From: Erysipelotrichia bacterium
GTDB taxonomy: Bacteria; Bacillota_I; Bacilli_A; Erysipelotrichales; Erysipelotrichaceae
DNA: 32,716 nucleotides
Reading direction: 5' to 3'
Assembly: GCA_018333955.1 (NCBI GenBank)
Contig: JAGXSD010000055.1
Location: 1-32,716, forward strand
Of the stretch, positions 23,469 to 30,922 are shown piece by piece; position 1 is the first letter of the stretch; each line of letters opens with the position of its first letter. Position numbers and translations under genes: made by a program. Under the pieces are notes generated by a model, which saw only the letters and a list, made by a program, of their open reading frames with translations, ran no database searches and was not told where the DNA came from.

Positions 23469-24452
23469 TTATAGGCTTAGCTTATTTGCCAATAAAATCG
23501 CGGCGACCATACTACTATCTCCCGCAAGACCTTGTCCCGCAATATCAAAAGCCGTTCCATGATCCACTGAAGTACGAATAATCGGTAAACCAACCGAAGT
23601 ATTTACTCCGGAATCAAAGGCAAAGAGTTTAAATGGAATATGGCCTTGATCATGATACATTGCCACCACAATATCAAAATCTTTCTTTAAACCACGCACA
23701 AATACGGTATCTGGAGAGATCGGACCGATCACATCATATTTTGATTTCATGGCTTTAATGGCTGGGGTAATAATCTTTTCTTCTTCATCACCAAACAAAC
23801 CATTTTCACTCGCATGAGGATTTAATCCTGCCACCGCAATCTTAGCTTTGCGCCCTTTAATCTTCGCAATATTCTCACCCGCAAGTTCAATGACTTGTTC
23901 AATACGCTTTTGAGAAAGCGTTGAAATCGCTTGAGATAATGAAATATGGGTCGATACATGAATCACAGATAGTTTCTCATCATAAAGCATCATCGCATAA
24001 TCACTTGATCCACTGTACTCCGCAAAGATTTCAGTATGTCCTGGGTAATAATGCCCCGCTAGATGCATCGCTTCTTTATTTAAAGGCGCAGTGGTTACAG
24101 CCCTTGCAAGACCTGCTTGCACAGCTTTAATGGATTCCACCACATATTCAAACGCTGCTTGCCCACACATCTGACTCACTTCACCCATCTTATAGGTAGA
24201 CATATCGATATTATTAAAGTCCACCACATTGAGAACTTTTTCATTAAATACCACATCGTTGATATTGAAAACTTGTTTGAGTGCATACTCGCTAATATTC
24301 AGTTGTGTTTTGAATAACTCCATCACTTCAAAGTCTCCAAAAACAACCACAGGCAATGTATTCACCTCGGTTTTCTTAAAGCTTTGAAGAATGACCTCAG
24401 GACCAATCCCTGCCGGATCACCCATGGTTAAAATAATCGGAAGTTGATTCAT
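23469..24452 (-). CDS. pdxA2: PdxA2-type 4-phospho-D-threonate/erythronate dehydrogenase
   Basis: A full-length PdxA-family enzyme (327 aa). TMGDPAGIGPEV opens the protein, and the metal-binding histidines are present: His169 (STHI), His213 (NPHASENG) and His267 (MYHDQG). The C-terminal VGLPIIRTSVDHGTAFDIAG is typical. Classical PdxA acts in vitamin B6 synthesis, but the pairing with a DUF1537 kinase and a KdgT permease indicates PdxA2. PdxA2 oxidises and decarboxylates 4-phospho-D-threonate or -erythronate to dihydroxyacetone phosphate using NAD. No other pyridoxine gene is nearby. The start has GAGG overlapping the kinase stop; the genes are 5 bp apart. Confidence 0.9.
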   Translation of the reverse strand: MNQLPIILTMGDPAGIGPEVILQSFKKTEVNTLPVVVFGDFEVMELFKTQLNISEYALKQVFNINDVVFNEKVLNVVDFNNIDMSTYKMGEVSQMCGQAAFEYVVESIKAVQAGLARAVTTAPLNKEAMHLAGHYYPGHTEIFAEYSGSSDYAMMLYDEKLSVIHVSTHISLSQAISTLSQKRIEQVIELAGENIAKIKGRKAKIAVAGLNPHASENGLFGDEEEKIITPAIKAMKSKYDVIGPISPDTVFVRGLKKDFDIVVAMYHDQGHIPFKLFAFDSGVNTSVGLPIIRTSVDHGTAFDIAGQGLAGDSSMVAAILLANKLSL

Positions 24453-24457
24453 ACACG

Positions 24458-25711
24458 TTACCTCAATTCTTTCAATATCACATCAAATGCATCTATTTTA
24501 CCAAAGCCACCTGCTTTAGTCACAATATTAATATCTTGGTATTTCTCTGAAATAAAGCGTCCCATAGGAATTGCTGGAAGCACTTCCTTCACAATAACCA
24601 TACCTTCAATACCTAAATGCTTCGCAATCTTAATGAGCGTATCTCCACCTGTAATATAAAGACCACTAATCACATCACTCGCTTCATCCACAACTTTAGA
24701 AGTTAAATCCCCTAACTTCTCCGCAATCCGATCACTCATTTCAAACGTTGTTAAACCTAAGGCTTCAGCTTTTAAGGAAGCTTTTTTTACATCCTCAACA
24801 TGTCCTGCAGTTCTCACCACCACATGGCCACCTGCTTTAAGTTCCTTCACAACCTTATTAATAACATCATGACTTAAGGTTTCATCAAACATCGCATCAA
24901 TATCATAATCCACCACCATCAGTTCATGATGATTGGATGCATATTCAATTTGTTGACGAGTCACATCACTCACACTTCCAATAATTGATAACACACAACG
25001 ACGTGACTTAAGTTGTAATGCATCCGTTAAAAACTCCGCAAGCCCTGCAGTACCCACCATTAAGAATCTTTCTTCATACACTCTTAAGGCGGCCGCAAGT
25101 TGTTTTAAATCCTCATTATCATACGCATCAAACACTAAGACTTCAACCCCATTTGAGCGATGATGTTTAATCGTCTCGACAACTTCTAATACATCATATC
25201 CCTTCAGTGGTTTAAACACCACATGAACACGTTTGTCCATTTGTTGACTCAAGATATCAGGAATATATGATTTCTTGACTGGGGTCTTAGGATCATTCGC
25301 CACTTCAGTTAAATGAAGTGGTGTACCATTCACAATCACATGCCCTTCAATGGTTTGACGACCATTGGATGGAAGTGCAGGAATAAGTATTGCGAAATCA
25401 TAGCCAAACCCATCCATACATGCTTCAATCTCAGCTCCAACATTCCCTTTAAATGTAGAATCTAGTTTCTTATACACAAAAGTAATATGGTGACCTGAAA
25501 GTTGCTTTGATACTTGATTCACTTTATCAAACGCCACAGGTGCACTATCAAAGCGACTTTCAGTATCAATAACTGCCACCTCCGCATTAAGAATATTCTC
25601 ACCAAACTCTTGAAGGTTAGTGGTGACCACCGTTCTTAATCCTTTTTTCGCAAATTGAACTCCAGTATCATTTGATCCTGTAAAATCATCCGCAATAATT
25701 GTTAGTTTCAT
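24458..25711 (-). CDS. dtnK: DUF1537 four-carbon acid sugar kinase
   Basis: Members of this family phosphorylate D-threonate, D-erythronate or related acids. The N-terminal IIADDFTGSNDTGVQFAKKG is the substrate-domain signature (DDFTGxxD). The C-terminal half has YITGGDTLIKIAKHLG and TKAGGFGKIDAF, the nucleotide-binding loop. At 417 aa it is complete. The start at 25711 follows a G-rich stretch (GTGGGTG); an ATG six codons earlier (25729) has no ribosome site. The exact substrate cannot be told from sequence; the D-threonate assignment comes from the kdgT-kinase-pdxA2 order, which I recall from Salmonella STM0161-STM0163. A hairpin lies between it and the permease gene. Confidence 0.85.
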   Translation of the reverse strand: MKLTIIADDFTGSNDTGVQFAKKGLRTVVTTNLQEFGENILNAEVAVIDTESRFDSAPVAFDKVNQVSKQLSGHHITFVYKKLDSTFKGNVGAEIEACMDGFGYDFAILIPALPSNGRQTIEGHVIVNGTPLHLTEVANDPKTPVKKSYIPDILSQQMDKRVHVVFKPLKGYDVLEVVETIKHHRSNGVEVLVFDAYDNEDLKQLAAALRVYEERFLMVGTAGLAEFLTDALQLKSRRCVLSIIGSVSDVTRQQIEYASNHHELMVVDYDIDAMFDETLSHDVINKVVKELKAGGHVVVRTAGHVEDVKKASLKAEALGLTTFEMSDRIAEKLGDLTSKVVDEASDVISGLYITGGDTLIKIAKHLGIEGMVIVKEVLPAIPMGRFISEKYQDINIVTKAGGFGKIDAFDVILKELR

Positions 25712-25738
25712 ACCTACACCCACTTTCATTTGAAGAAA

Positions 25739-25770
25739 GAAAGAATCAAAACCAAGGCTTTGATTCTTTC
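25739..25770 (-). terminator. Intercistronic hairpin between permease and kinase genes
   Basis: Perfect 12-bp stem (GAAAGAATCAAA and its complement) with an 8-base loop, followed on the minus strand by TTTCTTC. It begins about 15 bases after the permease stop and ends just before the kinase ribosome site. It probably acts as a partial terminator or an mRNA-stabilising end, giving more permease message than kinase message. Confidence 0.6.
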
Positions 25771-25785
25771 AACTTAGACTTGATA

Positions 25786-26724
25786 TTAAGCTTTTACTTT
25801 TTTAGGAAATTGTTTCTTCACAAAGGTTGTAAAGAGTGGAGTTAATAAAGCTGTTGTAATGACAGAAGCCGCAACTTGAGCAGTCGCTACAGAAGCCACT
25901 GCAGCTAAAGTTGGATCAGCTAAGGCGACTGCCGCAGGAGTTCCTACCGCATTACCTGCAGTTGAAGATGCCGCTGCACCAGCCACACCTGTACCACCAG
26001 AAGCTTTATCAGCTAAGACGTTGAATACACCACCGACGACTGTAGTTAAGACACCAAGTAGAACCCCAGCGAAACCTGCACTTACGATAGTTCCAAAGTT
26101 TAGACCAGCTCCTAATGCGAAAGCAAAGAATGGAATTAAAACTGGTCCACCTTTAGTCAAGAATTGTCTCATATCATCATCAAGGTTACCTAAGATCATC
26201 CCTAATACGATAGGAACAATAACCCCTACCAATGTCATGAGAGGAATACTTGCTAGACCCGCAGTTCCCAAAGCAATAAGTGTTAAGAATGGACCATCAT
26301 TGACGGATAATACAGAAATAGCACCAATATCTGTTTCATCTCCTAATTGACCCACTAATGCAGCATATAAACCACCATTACTGTTAGTCATTGCGGCAAT
26401 AATCGCAATCGAAGATAAACCTAATAAACCATTAACTGGGAATAATGCCGCGACGGCTAAGCCAATGAGTACCCCAATCGCAAACTTAGTGAATGTAATC
26501 GCGGTACCACGTACCAATGCTTTTGGAGCTGCTTTAAAGCTAATGCCAGCCCCCATACAAAATAAGAATACCCCAATGAGTGGACTTGCTCCACGAGCAA
26601 TTGCCGTAGTGAATCCTCCAATTTCTAAAGCGGAAGGAAACCATGTGTTAAGGACTGCACCAATAAGTAAAGGCACAACCATCATTCCCCCAGGAATTCT
26701 TTCAATGCTCTTCTTGATCTTCAT
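25786..26724 (-). CDS. kdgT: KdgT-family sugar-acid permease
   Basis: A 312-aa, very hydrophobic integral membrane protein. The N-terminal [20 protein letters not shown] and [15 protein letters not shown] match the 2-keto-3-deoxygluconate permease family, and the small-residue-rich segment [20 protein letters not shown] is its conserved re-entrant or helical part. About ten membrane segments are likely. Family members carry sugar acids into the cell by proton symport. Here the likely substrate is D-threonate or D-erythronate, the input of the following kinase and dehydrogenase. The start is set at 26724, with AAGGAGA six bases upstream; the frame extends 11 codons further without a ribosome site. 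It is the first gene of the operon. Confidence 0.9.
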
Positions 26725-26750
26725 CTCTTTCTCCTTTCGAAAGCATTCAG

Positions 26751-26771
26751 TATTCATTCATAAAATGAATA
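26751..26771. promoter_or_regulatory. Dyad, candidate DeoR-type operator
   Basis: Inverted repeat with 8-bp arms (TATTCATT and its complement, 5-base centre) placed just downstream of the transcription start expected from the -10 at 26784-26789. A repressor here would block early elongation. The DeoR-family regulator of this operon is the natural candidate. Confidence 0.45.
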
Positions 26772-27219: not shown

Positions 27220-27267
27220 ACAATACTTTCTTTAATATTAATGATTATTAGATACAAACTAAAAAAA

Positions 27268-27308
27268 CTTCATCATCACTGCATTGCCTTAATGCAGTAA
27301 TGTTGAAG
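27268..27308. terminator. Intrinsic terminator between the small peptide gene and the GNAT gene
   Basis: 18-bp stem with two mismatches (core ACTGCATT/AATGCAGT) and a 5-base loop. On the minus strand it is followed by seven T's, a textbook terminator for the GNAT gene. On the plus strand it is followed by CTAATTTTA and probably ends the 42-aa gene too. Confidence 0.8.
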
Positions 27309-27323
27309 CTAATTTTATGTATA

Positions 27324-28352
27324 CTATGATTGTTCTTGTTTAGAAAACCATTCACTTCTTGTGATTCCATACTTTAATGAATCATAATAATAATCTTGAT
27401 AGTACCTAACTTTAGGTATATGAGCTTCTAGATTGAGTCCTACATTCAACGCAGATTTCATCATTCTTTGATTACCCGACCAGGTTGATAAACCAATATG
27501 TTCAATATTATGGGTATTAAAGATATGGGTAATCCACTGTCTTAGCGCAATCTTTCCAATACTTTTATTCCACATATCTTCTTCATAAAGGAGTATACCT
27601 ATCTCTAACCAACGTGTTCTTGAGTCTACATAATAAGATGATACAGACCCAACAAGTTTATCTTCTAACTTTATTGCTTTTAATGATGCTTTATTTATGT
27701 ATCTCTCATGATAATAAAGAGTGAACTCTTCAAATGTCTTTCGTTCTTCTTTCCCAAAGTATGGAGCATCAAAATCTTCAAATCGATAATGTGGTTGTTC
27801 ATACGCAAGTTTATAAACATTCTCTAAATCTGCTTCTTTGAAATCTACAATCTTTACAGCATCACTTAAATACTTCTGACTTGGTTTAAAGTTTTGCAAA
27901 GCACATGTGAAAACTTGATTAACTTCAGTACTAAACTCTCCTGTTGGTTTAAATCCTAATCTTGTATAAAGGTTGATTGCTTGTGTATTAGTAATTCTTG
28001 GATCCACTTGAACCTTGAGATTTGGAAAATTAATAAATATCTGTGTCATACAAAAACTAAGTGCATAACTAGCAATCCCTTTCCCATGAAACTTAGGATC
28101 AAGCTTGATATCAACATAAGCAATATCATCTTTTATACGATAAAAAGTTTCTCCACTAAATTGAGAATCATTATAGATACTATAATGTTTAGCACTACCA
28201 CTTTTTGATATGGCATCAAACCATGGGTTCATATCATCTCTATGTTTGCCTAAACCTTGAGGAAAACCTACCCATTTCATGACCTCACCATTATTCCAAA
28301 GGTCACATAAAAAATCTAAATCTTTAGTTTCAGTTTCTTTTATAATGATCAT
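27324..28352 (-). CDS. Tandem GNAT acetyltransferase
   Basis: Two GNAT domains are fused in 342 aa. The first (about 1-150) has the acetyl-CoA loop KFHGKGIASYAL and the closing NLYTRLGFKPTGEF. The second (about 165-335) resembles RimJ/RimL enzymes (RWLEIGILLYEEDMWNKSIG, HIGLSTWSGNQRMMKSALNVG). The enzyme would move acetyl groups from acetyl-CoA to an amine; the substrate is unknown and could be a peptide, a polyamine or an antibiotic. The second ATG (28352) is preferred because AGAAAAGA has workable spacing; the ATG at 28358 is too close. Upstream lie a leader peptide and hairpins, which suggest induction by ribosome stalling. Confidence 0.8.
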   Translation of the reverse strand: MIIIKETETKDLDFLCDLWNNGEVMKWVGFPQGLGKHRDDMNPWFDAISKSGSAKHYSIYNDSQFSGETFYRIKDDIAYVDIKLDPKFHGKGIASYALSFCMTQIFINFPNLKVQVDPRITNTQAINLYTRLGFKPTGEFSTEVNQVFTCALQNFKPSQKYLSDAVKIVDFKEADLENVYKLAYEQPHYRFEDFDAPYFGKEERKTFEEFTLYYHERYINKASLKAIKLEDKLVGSVSSYYVDSRTRWLEIGILLYEEDMWNKSIGKIALRQWITHIFNTHNIEHIGLSTWSGNQRMMKSALNVGLNLEAHIPKVRYYQDYYYDSLKYGITRSEWFSKQEQS

Positions 28353-28367
28353 GTTCATTCTTTTCTA

Positions 28368-28424
28368 AGTCGATTAGAAATTAATGAGACAACCCAAACA
28401 AATAATCGACTAAATTTGTTGGGT
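28368..28424 (-). promoter_or_regulatory. Leader hairpins upstream of the GNAT gene
   Basis: Two stems. ACCCAACAAAT (28424-28414, inside the leader peptide gene) pairs with ATTTGTTTGGGT (28403-28392) with one bulge. AGTCGATTA (28411-28403, at the leader stop) pairs perfectly with TAATCGACT (28376-28368), next to the GNAT ribosome site. A ribosome halted near the end of the leader peptide would open both stems and expose the start. Confidence 0.55.
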
Positions 28425-28448
28425 GAATTTTGATTTTAATTGTTTCAT
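28410..28448 (-). CDS. 12-aa leader peptide upstream of the GNAT gene
   Basis: Reading MKQLKSKFTQQI and a TAG stop, with a strong Shine-Dalgarno (AAGGTGG, 28459-28453) far better than that of the GNAT gene itself. It sits about 23 bp downstream of a promoter, and its last codons form the 5' arms of the two leader stems. The arrangement is that of translational attenuators of inducible resistance genes. It is not related in sequence to leaders I know. Confidence 0.55.
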   Translation of the reverse strand: MKQLKSKFTQQI

Positions 28449-28471
28449 AAATCCACCTTCTTTCCTTCGCT

Positions 28472-28501
28472 AGCATATCACAACACATGAGTACTGTTCA
28501 A
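28472..28501 (-). promoter_or_regulatory. Promoter of the leader peptide-GNAT unit
   Basis: On the minus strand TTGAAC (28501-28496) and TATGCT (28477-28472) are 18 bp apart, with an extended -10 TGA directly before it. The predicted transcript starts about 20 bases before the leader peptide ATG. Confidence 0.55.
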
Positions 28502-28525
28502 CACTCATAGAATAACTTGTTCTTT

Positions 28526-29203: not shown

Positions 29204-29225
29204 TAATGTTGCAATTGCAACATTA
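29204..29225. promoter_or_regulatory. 22-bp perfect palindrome, Crp/Fnr operator
   Basis: TAATGTTGCAA followed by its exact reverse complement, in the space between the divergent regulator and hemerythrin-DUF438 genes. Length and core (GTTGCAA-TTGCAAC) fit a Crp/Fnr dimer site of HcpR type. It falls just downstream of the predicted start of the regulator transcript and upstream of the other promoter. Confidence 0.75.
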
Positions 29226-29236
29226 TTTTCAACTTA

Positions 29237-29265
29237 AGTATATTAAACTTAGACATATAAAACAA
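29237..29265 (-). promoter_or_regulatory. Predicted promoter of the Crp/Fnr gene
   Basis: On the minus strand TTGTTT (29265-29260) and TATACT (29242-29237) are 17 bp apart, placing the start near 29230. The palindrome would cover about +5 to +26, suiting autorepression. For the plus-strand operon TATAAA (29256-29261) is the best -10, with a poor -35 (CTTAAG), as expected for an activated promoter. Confidence 0.5.
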
Positions 29266-29289
29266 GATACGTTGAAAAGGAGTGAACTC

Positions 29290-30492
29290 ATGAGTGAACT
29301 TATTAATAACCAAAGTAGAGAAAGACAAGAAGCTCTTAAGCAGTTAATCAAGAAACTGCATGAAGGGGTTGATGTAGAAATCGTTAAAGCACAGTTTCAA
29401 GAACAATTTGGTACTGTAACCACTAAAGAGATTGTTGAAATTGAAAGTGCGCTTGTGGAAGATGGTTTATCTGTGAAAGAGATTGAGCGACTATGTGATG
29501 TTCATGCAAGTGTCATGGGGGTTAATGTAAGTTTGATTCATCAAGGCGATGCTAAGCTATTATCTGGACATCCTCTACGTGTATTAGAAGAAGAAAATGC
29601 CCTGATTGAAAAACTCATAGTTGAGGAGATTGAGCCATTTACTCAACAATTCAATGCTCATCATATTATGATGTTGCGTATTGGTTTTGATCGTCTTTTA
29701 GAAATTGATAAGCACTATAAACGAAAAGAACATTTGTTCTTCCCGTATTTAGAGAAAAAAGGAATCACCACCCCTCCTCAAGTGATGTGGGGAGTGGACG
29801 ACTCTATTCGAGCTCACATCAAGGAAACGATTCGTCGTCTTAATGAGAAAGATATTAATCAAGAAGCACTTCAAGAACAAATGAAAGTCACACTAAGTCA
29901 AGTGCGAGAAATGATCTTTAAAGAAAATCAGATTTTGATTCCTCTTTTAAAGGAACAACTCAATTTACTTAATTTCATTGATATTGCTCAAGCGAGTGAT
30001 GAGATAGGATACTTCCATGAAGTTCCAAAACAACACTTCTTAGTTCAAAAACAAGAACATCATCAACCTGAAGTGGAAAACAATCATGTCAAGTTCCAAA
30101 CTGGTGGTTTAGATGTCCATGTCTTAGAAGCCATGTTAAATACACTACCACTGGATATGACATTTGTTGATGCTTCAGGTCATGTCCGATATTTCTCCAA
30201 TGGAAAAGAACGTGTGTTTGAGCGACCAGTTACCATTCTTGGTCGTCATGTCCATCATTGCCATCCTCCAAAAAGTGTAGATATAGTGGAAACAATTATT
30301 GAAAGATTTAGAAGTGGTGTTAAGGATGAAGAAGCATTTTGGATTAAAATAAAAGACAAGTTTGTTCATATTCGCTATTTTGCAGTGAGAGATCCACAAG
30401 GTAACTACTTAGGAACGCTTGAAATGACACAAGATATTGCTCCACTTAAAGCACTAGATAGTGAAAAGCGACTACTTGAAGATTATGTTTAA
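29290..30492 (+). CDS. DUF438-hemerythrin-PAS protein
   Basis: 400 aa in three parts. DUF438 covers about 8-76 (EALKQLIKKLHEGVDVEIVK, LVEDGLSVKEIERLCDVHAS). A hemerythrin HHE four-helix domain follows (about 90-225) with likely di-iron ligands His94, His142/His148, Glu147, and His176. A C-terminal PAS domain (278-395) has the HHCHPP motif. Proteins of this build are thought to sense or repair damage by oxygen or nitric oxide. The start at 29290 has AAAGGAG seven bases upstream; the frame extends to 29206 but that would run across the operator. It heads a four-gene operon and is divergent from the Crp/Fnr regulator. Confidence 0.88.
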   Translation: MSELINNQSRERQEALKQLIKKLHEGVDVEIVKAQFQEQFGTVTTKEIVEIESALVEDGLSVKEIERLCDVHASVMGVNVSLIHQGDAKLLSGHPLRVLEEENALIEKLIVEEIEPFTQQFNAHHIMMLRIGFDRLLEIDKHYKRKEHLFFPYLEKKGITTPPQVMWGVDDSIRAHIKETIRRLNEKDINQEALQEQMKVTLSQVREMIFKENQILIPLLKEQLNLLNFIDIAQASDEIGYFHEVPKQHFLVQKQEHHQPEVENNHVKFQTGGLDVHVLEAMLNTLPLDMTFVDASGHVRYFSNGKERVFERPVTILGRHVHHCHPPKSVDIVETIIERFRSGVKDEEAFWIKIKDKFVHIRYFAVRDPQGNYLGTLEMTQDIAPLKALDSEKRLLEDYV

Positions 30493-30922
30493 GCGACTAA
30501 TGTGGATTGTGATTGGAACGTTAAGTTGTGCTCTAGGACTCCTTGGTGTTATCTTACCAGGGTTACCAACAACACCATTTCTACTTCTCACAGTATTTGC
30601 GTATAGTAAAGGCTCAAAGCGATTCCATACGTGGTTTATCCAATCAAAGCTTTACACAAAACATTTAGAATCATTTCATAAGCATAAGTGTATGAGCAAA
30701 AAACAGAAGGATTTGCTTATGTTATATTCAGATCTAGTTGTCTTGATAAGCTTTATTACCATCAATAACATCATCCTTCGACTAGTTTTAATTATTCTAG
30801 TCGTTACAAAGTATTGGTATTTCCATCGCTTTATTACGATTATTAAGTCACAACCTGATCATGATATAAGACACACATTGAAGTCACATGGTGTACTAAA
30901 AAAGATAAAGTGGTCACAATGA
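30485..30922 (+). CDS. DUF454 (YbaN-like) inner-membrane protein
   Basis: 145 aa. The N-terminal MWIVIGTLSCALGLLGVILP followed by GLPTTPFLLLTVFAYSKGS is the DUF454 signature, with a second membrane region around DLVVLISFITINNIILRLVL. Function is unknown. I place the start at the ATG at 30485, overlapping the previous stop by 8 bp (ATGTTTAA); a GTG at 30461 would overlap by 32 bp. DUF454 genes are often next to hemerythrin, hcp or heme genes in anaerobes, which fits this operon. Confidence 0.85.
   Translation: MFKRLMWIVIGTLSCALGLLGVILPGLPTTPFLLLTVFAYSKGSKRFHTWFIQSKLYTKHLESFHKHKCMSKKQKDLLMLYSDLVVLISFITINNIILRLVLIILVVTKYWYFHRFITIIKSQPDHDIRHTLKSHGVLKKIKWSQ

Follow-up and report, generated by a model that had tools for sequence, protein, structure and literature searches.

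What is a frame of 12 codons with a strong ribosome site doing in front of a tandem GNAT acetyltransferase gene? The question arises in the window analysed here, a 32,716-nucleotide stretch of an Erysipelotrichia bacterium genome (contig JAGXSD010000055.1), where a leader of about 113 bases, counted from the estimated transcript start, separates the acetyltransferase gene (27324-28352, minus strand; assigned by Pfam and homologue alignment) from a gene for a CRP/FNR-type regulator (29194-28526). A sequence-only reading had likened this leader to the attenuators of erm and cat genes and suggested drug-inducible control, with the tandem GNAT perhaps an inducible resistance or ribosome-stress gene. 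Comparison with relatives points to what a single sequence could not reveal, a putative conserved unit of leader frame and paired RNA on a GNAT family, and the leader probably acts as a translational attenuator that senses ribosomes, with a logic like that of erm and toiL.

All elements of the leader are read on the minus strand. The promoter, as read from the sequence, comprises a -35 element TTGAAC (28501-28496), an 18-base spacer and an extended -10 element TGA-TATGCT (28480-28472), with transcription predicted to start near 28465. Its earlier description as strong holds in part: the extended -10 (TGA) and the alignment of the stretch from promoter to leader ATG with the E. tonsillarum locus, equalled by 0 of 500 shuffles, speak for it, but a consensus score of 8/12 is moderate and falls below the 9-of-12 threshold of the promoter scan, which for that reason did not list it. 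An inverted repeat, ATGAGT (28508-28503) and ACTCAT (28492-28487) with 10 bases between (28487-28508), overlaps the -35 element and, with a CRP/FNR-type regulator gene adjacent, is a possible operator. Downstream, the Shine-Dalgarno sequence AAGGTGG (28453-28459) precedes the leader frame MKQLKSKFTQQI (28410-28448; 12 codons and TAG, with ATG at 28448-28446 and TAG at 28412-28410). The leader site scores -10.7 kcal/mol in duplex energy, whereas the main start at 28352 reaches -3.6 and an ATG at 28358 reaches -0.7; the earlier description holds both for the 12-codon frame and for the far better leader ribosome site. The main start is probably 28352, since the homologue starts MITIKETT and MITINETT align with MIIIKETE there; this leaves a gap of 57 bases from leader stop to GNAT start (43-90 in relatives). 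Fusion of leader and enzyme by readthrough was considered and rejected: the two share a frame, yet three in-frame stops intervene. After the GNAT gene comes an intrinsic terminator (27259-27310, minus strand; a long hairpin followed by TTTTTTT; -24.6 kcal/mol, z = -6.5), which makes it likely that the gene forms a transcription unit by itself.

The end of the leader frame supplies the 5' arms of two predicted stems, and the coordinates uphold this part of the earlier description too. Stem S1 pairs CCCAACAAA (28423-28415) with TTTGTTTGGG (28402-28393) around one bulged T, while stem S2 joins AGTCGATTA (28411-28403) to TAATCGACT (28376-28368) through nine perfect pairs; the 5' arm of S2 overlaps the leader stop codon and sits inside the S1 loop, and its 3' arm ends 15 bases 5' of the GNAT start. 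On this geometry S1 and S2 might either be mutually exclusive or form an H-type pseudoknot with a first loop of 3 bases and a last loop of 16. Each stem has a competitor. Helix 0:1, between GGUGGAUUU in the leader Shine-Dalgarno region (28457-28449) and AAAUUCACC late in the leader frame (28430-28422), competes with S1, and similar pairings between Shine-Dalgarno and leader end are present at L047, L032 and L036, as well as in the fold of L048; S2 competes with a hairpin over the main Shine-Dalgarno region, TTTCTAA (28380-28374), TCGAC and TTAGAAA (28368-28362). This last hairpin belongs to the minimum-free-energy fold, and the computed cost of opening positions -16 to +2 is 5.3 kcal/mol; the hairpin is weaker in L046 and L048 as read from sequence, that is, not conserved. 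The stability of the whole leader fold is unexceptional (z = -1.14).

How widely is this arrangement shared? Scanning genome and viral contigs with the single protein sequence gave no relatives; a query with alignment A1 gave 80 loci, and a homologue search of 315 genomes of the order yielded nine tandem-GNAT genes, the present one included, whose proteins are 37-46% identical to the present enzyme across the family set. Six of the nine are preceded by a short leader frame whose end is involved in predicted RNA pairing; besides the present gene, these are L047, L032, L036, L046 and L048, which thus share the frame, where it lies and the way it overlaps the paired RNA. To gauge how unusual such frames are, we took 128 control genes from DNA of the same family with at least 100 bases upstream and asked for a frame of 8-25 codons with a Shine-Dalgarno score of -8 or lower: one of the 128 had it. 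Comparable scores mark the leaders of L048 (-10.5), L047 (-10.8) and the present locus (-10.7), with only -6.0 in L046; those of L032 and L036 (AGAGGTGG and AGAGGGTGG) were judged by eye, with no computed score.

The two nearest relatives (genomes G013 and G245; loci L046 and L048) have proteins 41-46% identical and keep both S1 and S2. A DNA search with the leader matched G013 at 71% identity (E 1e-4), the match ending 6 bases 5' of the protein match, which itself starts 3 bases before the ATG; G245 has the same leader layout as G013 and the present locus. The gene upstream differs, a CRP-type regulator here and a membrane-protein-like frame, read from sequence, in G013 and G245, so the leader travels with the GNAT gene. 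Across the three sequences 92.6% of the cells in S1 and S2 are paired, with one compensatory change in each stem that alters both sides (A-U to G-C in S1, U-A to A-U in S2), and sliding the register by 1-3 columns leaves 27-50% paired and zero compensatory changes. We do not claim this covariation as proof, since with only three sequences it cannot reach significance, and 67 of 500 control shuffles reach the observed level. When 314 genomes of the order were searched for the S2 pattern, scattered matches came up beyond the present locus and G245; because a control pattern matches many genomes too, this gives no sign of a regulon. A search of viral contigs found neither the leader core nor the Bacillales leader treated below.

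The more distant relatives show what is, and what is not, kept. The homologue leader peptides, MFSFNNIHQSEIVV, MFLTNRISPSRASR, MLKTINHHPENR in L047 (E. tonsillarum), MLTTFTMTPRKKL in L032 (G218) and MKNMTTLSHEF in L036 (G220), are unlike MKQLKSKFTQQI, and the nucleotides that leaders have in common, TTCACC and CAA, are read in different frames. L032 and L036 keep the leader frame with a different RNA sequence, in which a second segment has two possible partners, the leader end or the flank of the main Shine-Dalgarno: CGUAAGA:UCUUGCG versus UCUUGCGUGG:CUAUGCAAGA (-12.2) in the first set of alternatives, CUCUCGCAUGAGU:GCUUAUGUGGGAG (-17.5) versus UUAUGUGGGAGAUACAA:UUGUAUUUUUCACAUAG (-17.1) in the second. 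In three genomes of Erysipelothrix, the genus of E. tonsillarum, the leader is absent (G212, G216 and G217), and a Shine-Dalgarno sequence and start of the leader type drive the enzyme frame directly; alignment of the stretch from promoter to Shine-Dalgarno with L047 was equalled by 2 of 500 shuffles for G212 and 0 of 500 for G217, and G216 is the weakest of the three cases because its frame is interrupted near the start in that assembly. The frames of L030-L035 extend past the tandem GNAT part, and a third GNAT-like domain (LPQWFGIPEA / LPEWFGIPES...), absent from the present gene, is seen in L030 and L032.

Unrelated peptides and shared nucleotides in different frames argue for selection on the RNA and the path of the ribosome, not on a stall peptide, and it is on this ground that we prefer an attenuator that senses position to an erm-like one specific to a peptide and a drug; the stall-peptide version is disfavoured by the same comparison. 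The likeness to erm and cat attenuators thus stands as far as a leader with attenuator-like RNA is concerned, but not for the stall peptide, and drug induction through a stall in MKQLKSKFTQQI is unsupported as it was worded; drugs or general translation stress are possible inducers. A terminator scan found no intrinsic terminator between leader and GNAT gene, which makes translational control the simpler reading.

In the attenuator that we favour, the strong ribosome site would start a short frame whose peptide sequence matters little, and whose last codons and stop codon would provide the 5' arms of two interlocking stems. The location of the ribosome on the leader would then select among the pairing of leader Shine-Dalgarno with leader end, S1, S2 and the hairpin over the main Shine-Dalgarno, and the helix chosen would make the weak main ribosome site available or not. 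We infer that the RNA folds in vivo, that the leader is translated and that expression varies with ribosome position. As to direction, we prefer, weakly, that a ribosome held on the leader would open the main site, so that slowed translation would yield more enzyme. With the leader start covered by a ribosome, the computed cost of opening positions -25 to +12 drops by between 0.8 and 4.9 kcal/mol in each of the six sequences (present locus 11.1 to 10.0, L048 7.4 to 4.2, L046 6.8 to 6.0, L047 8.3 to 7.0, L032 7.9 to 6.2, L036 14.0 to 9.1); with the last codon covered it falls in the present locus, L048, L046 and L032, and not in L047 or L036. For the narrow region from -16 to +2 of the present locus, covering the leader start raises the cost from 5.3 to 8.3. 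The differences are often small, and all these costs are biased downward because covered bases cannot pair.

Among other readings, the strongest is a pseudoknot activator with translational coupling, for which repZ of the IncIalpha plasmid ColIb-P9, controlled by a leader and a pseudoknot in which a hairpin loop pairs just upstream of the main Shine-Dalgarno, is the precedent. Here leader translation would remove the inhibitory hairpin and the S2 pseudoknot would favour main initiation, an idea to which we give perhaps one chance in a few. The topology fits, in that the partner site of the loop ends 15 bases ahead of the start, the leader stop lies inside that loop and S2 excludes the hairpin TTTCTAA-TCGAC-TTAGAAA over the Shine-Dalgarno. 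As in repZ, a loop complementary to the main Shine-Dalgarno flank and a leader stop by the hairpin are found here, the complementarity being the 9 bp of S2; unlike here, repZ is a plasmid replication gene with an antisense RNA, and the present pseudoknot is predicted. Stem pairs of equal strength in pseudoknot order are rare in shuffles of this locus (1 of 300), L046 (5 of 300) and L047 (4 of 300), whereas L048 is unremarkable (162 of 300) under an ungapped scoring that misses interrupted stems such as its S2. Against the activator, the 3' arms of S1 and S2 in L047 lie about 1 base apart, too short for coexistence, and the pseudoknot computed for the present locus, at -20.7 kcal/mol under an assumed 9 kcal penalty, is 6.3 less stable than the nested folds (-27.0). 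Given biased, mixed opening costs and a penalty-dependent pseudoknot estimate, the direction of control is held on weak grounds and a repZ-type activator is a live rival; it also overlaps our preferred explanation, because in it too the leader controls translation and the difference lies in the part that does the work.

It is improbable that the leader merely boosts basal translation, by reinitiation or ribosome loading, without regulation. Leader genes have been proposed as such boosters, with stop-start distances that peak at 10-16 bases (Korolev et al., PMC4833913), but the gaps here and in the relatives are far longer, and boosting has no need of conserved interlocking stems. Slightly less probable still is a drug-specific attenuator of the erm or cat type, in which a ribosome with an antibiotic bound would be arrested at one set codon of MKQLKSKFTQQI and the GNAT gene would confer inducible resistance: the architecture agrees, and the segment chains 0:1, 1:2 and 2:3 of L032 and L036 resemble erm logic, but the homologue peptides are wholly different and the enzyme matches no resistance family at cut-off. 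A ligand-binding pseudoknot riboswitch with an incidental leader frame is very unlikely, for despite the H-type pseudoknot order in the present locus, L046 and L048, an Rfam 15 scan of the window gave 0 matches at gathering score, and L032 and L036 keep the leader frame and not the RNA sequence, the reverse of an aptamer.

Both halves of the enzyme are GNAT domains (Pfam Acetyltransf_3/1/8/7), and the predicted structure (mean pLDDT 87) finds its best PDB matches among SpeG/RimL-type proteins, SpeG first, with a TM score normalised by target of about 0.8 and roughly 15-22% identity among the structural matches. NCBIfam matches to RimL and SpeG are weak and far below the curated cut-offs (36.9 vs 184 and 30.4 vs 218), and no NCBIfam resistance model matched at cut-off (aminoglycoside 6'-acetyltransferase, 29.4 bits vs 250); a resistance role for the tandem GNAT would be a guess. 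Elsewhere in the window, divergent from the CRP-type gene, 29206-30922 (plus strand) contains the gene of a DUF438/hemerythrin/PAS protein and, after it, a DUF454 gene. In 23469-26757 (minus strand), genes for a KdgT-type permease, a D-threonate-kinase-like protein and a PdxA/D-threonate-phosphate dehydrogenase-like protein stand in a row and may serve a pathway for a four-carbon acid sugar.

In Bacillales, relatives with a single GNAT domain have leaders of their own. Six loci (L102, L107, L115, L123, L108 and L124) have leaders of 10-14 codons, four ending VIEK and stop; the peptides include MKQIIWVIEK, MKQIQAYQVIEK, MKQVSKVTKVIEK and MRQKQKVIEK, and in L108 the frame extends to 29 codons because CAG replaces TAG after VIEK. 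Repeats at leader end, anti-segment and main Shine-Dalgarno (GATTGAAAAG, CTTTTCAATC and TTGAAAAGAGG) suggest a separate and clearer three-segment switch, whose segments would be GTGATTGAAAAG, where the leader ends, then CTTTTCAATC, and a Shine-Dalgarno resembling TTGAAAAGAGG; the pattern deviates in L102, L108, L115 and L124. Occupation of the late leader raises the computed opening cost in L107, L115 and L123, and lowers it at the last codon in L102. A class-wide search for GNATs of the Bacillales type returned Erysipelotrichaceae only. Two single GNAT genes, L003 (G029) and L037 (G087), have the short frames MKKTAAITNNQTWRDITL and MKQLTSCMRRAYIK upstream, with an SD-like sequence and GGAGGG/CCCTC-type complementarity.

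Open-access full texts searched for a leader peptide with GNAT or Erysipelothrix yielded nothing. Leader-controlled acetyltransferases, if real, would tie acetylation to the state of the ribosome through a short, testable element. We offer tentatively, as a doubtful but larger picture, that the tandem GNATs of Erysipelotrichaceae may be under peptide-free translation-stress sensors that respond to position only, through stems at the stop codon, with the Bacillales three-segment switch separate and acetylation a response to slowed ribosomes. Where the conserved feature is the location of the ribosome and not the peptide, searches for conserved leader peptides would miss the case.

Known systems resemble the locus in parts. 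For the enzyme only, SpeG and RimL are the best structural matches, and the present protein differs in its tandem domains. With the erm and cat attenuators (for example ermCL-ermC) it shares a short leader frame with a strong Shine-Dalgarno and helices that compete at the frame end and the main Shine-Dalgarno flank; it departs from them in a peptide that is not conserved, in an enzyme that is a GNAT and in stems that interlock in pseudoknot order. The toiL upstream frame of topAI-yjhQ in E. coli regulates different genes with no apparent sequence relation, and premature Rho termination is a feature of the toiL system; in likeness to the present locus, toiL bases pair with the main ribosome site, and stalls anywhere in the frame are proposed to unmask it (PMC12121999), so that no one codon has to be the stall site. 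This published proposal parallels the peptide-independent control that we favour for the tandem-GNAT leader.
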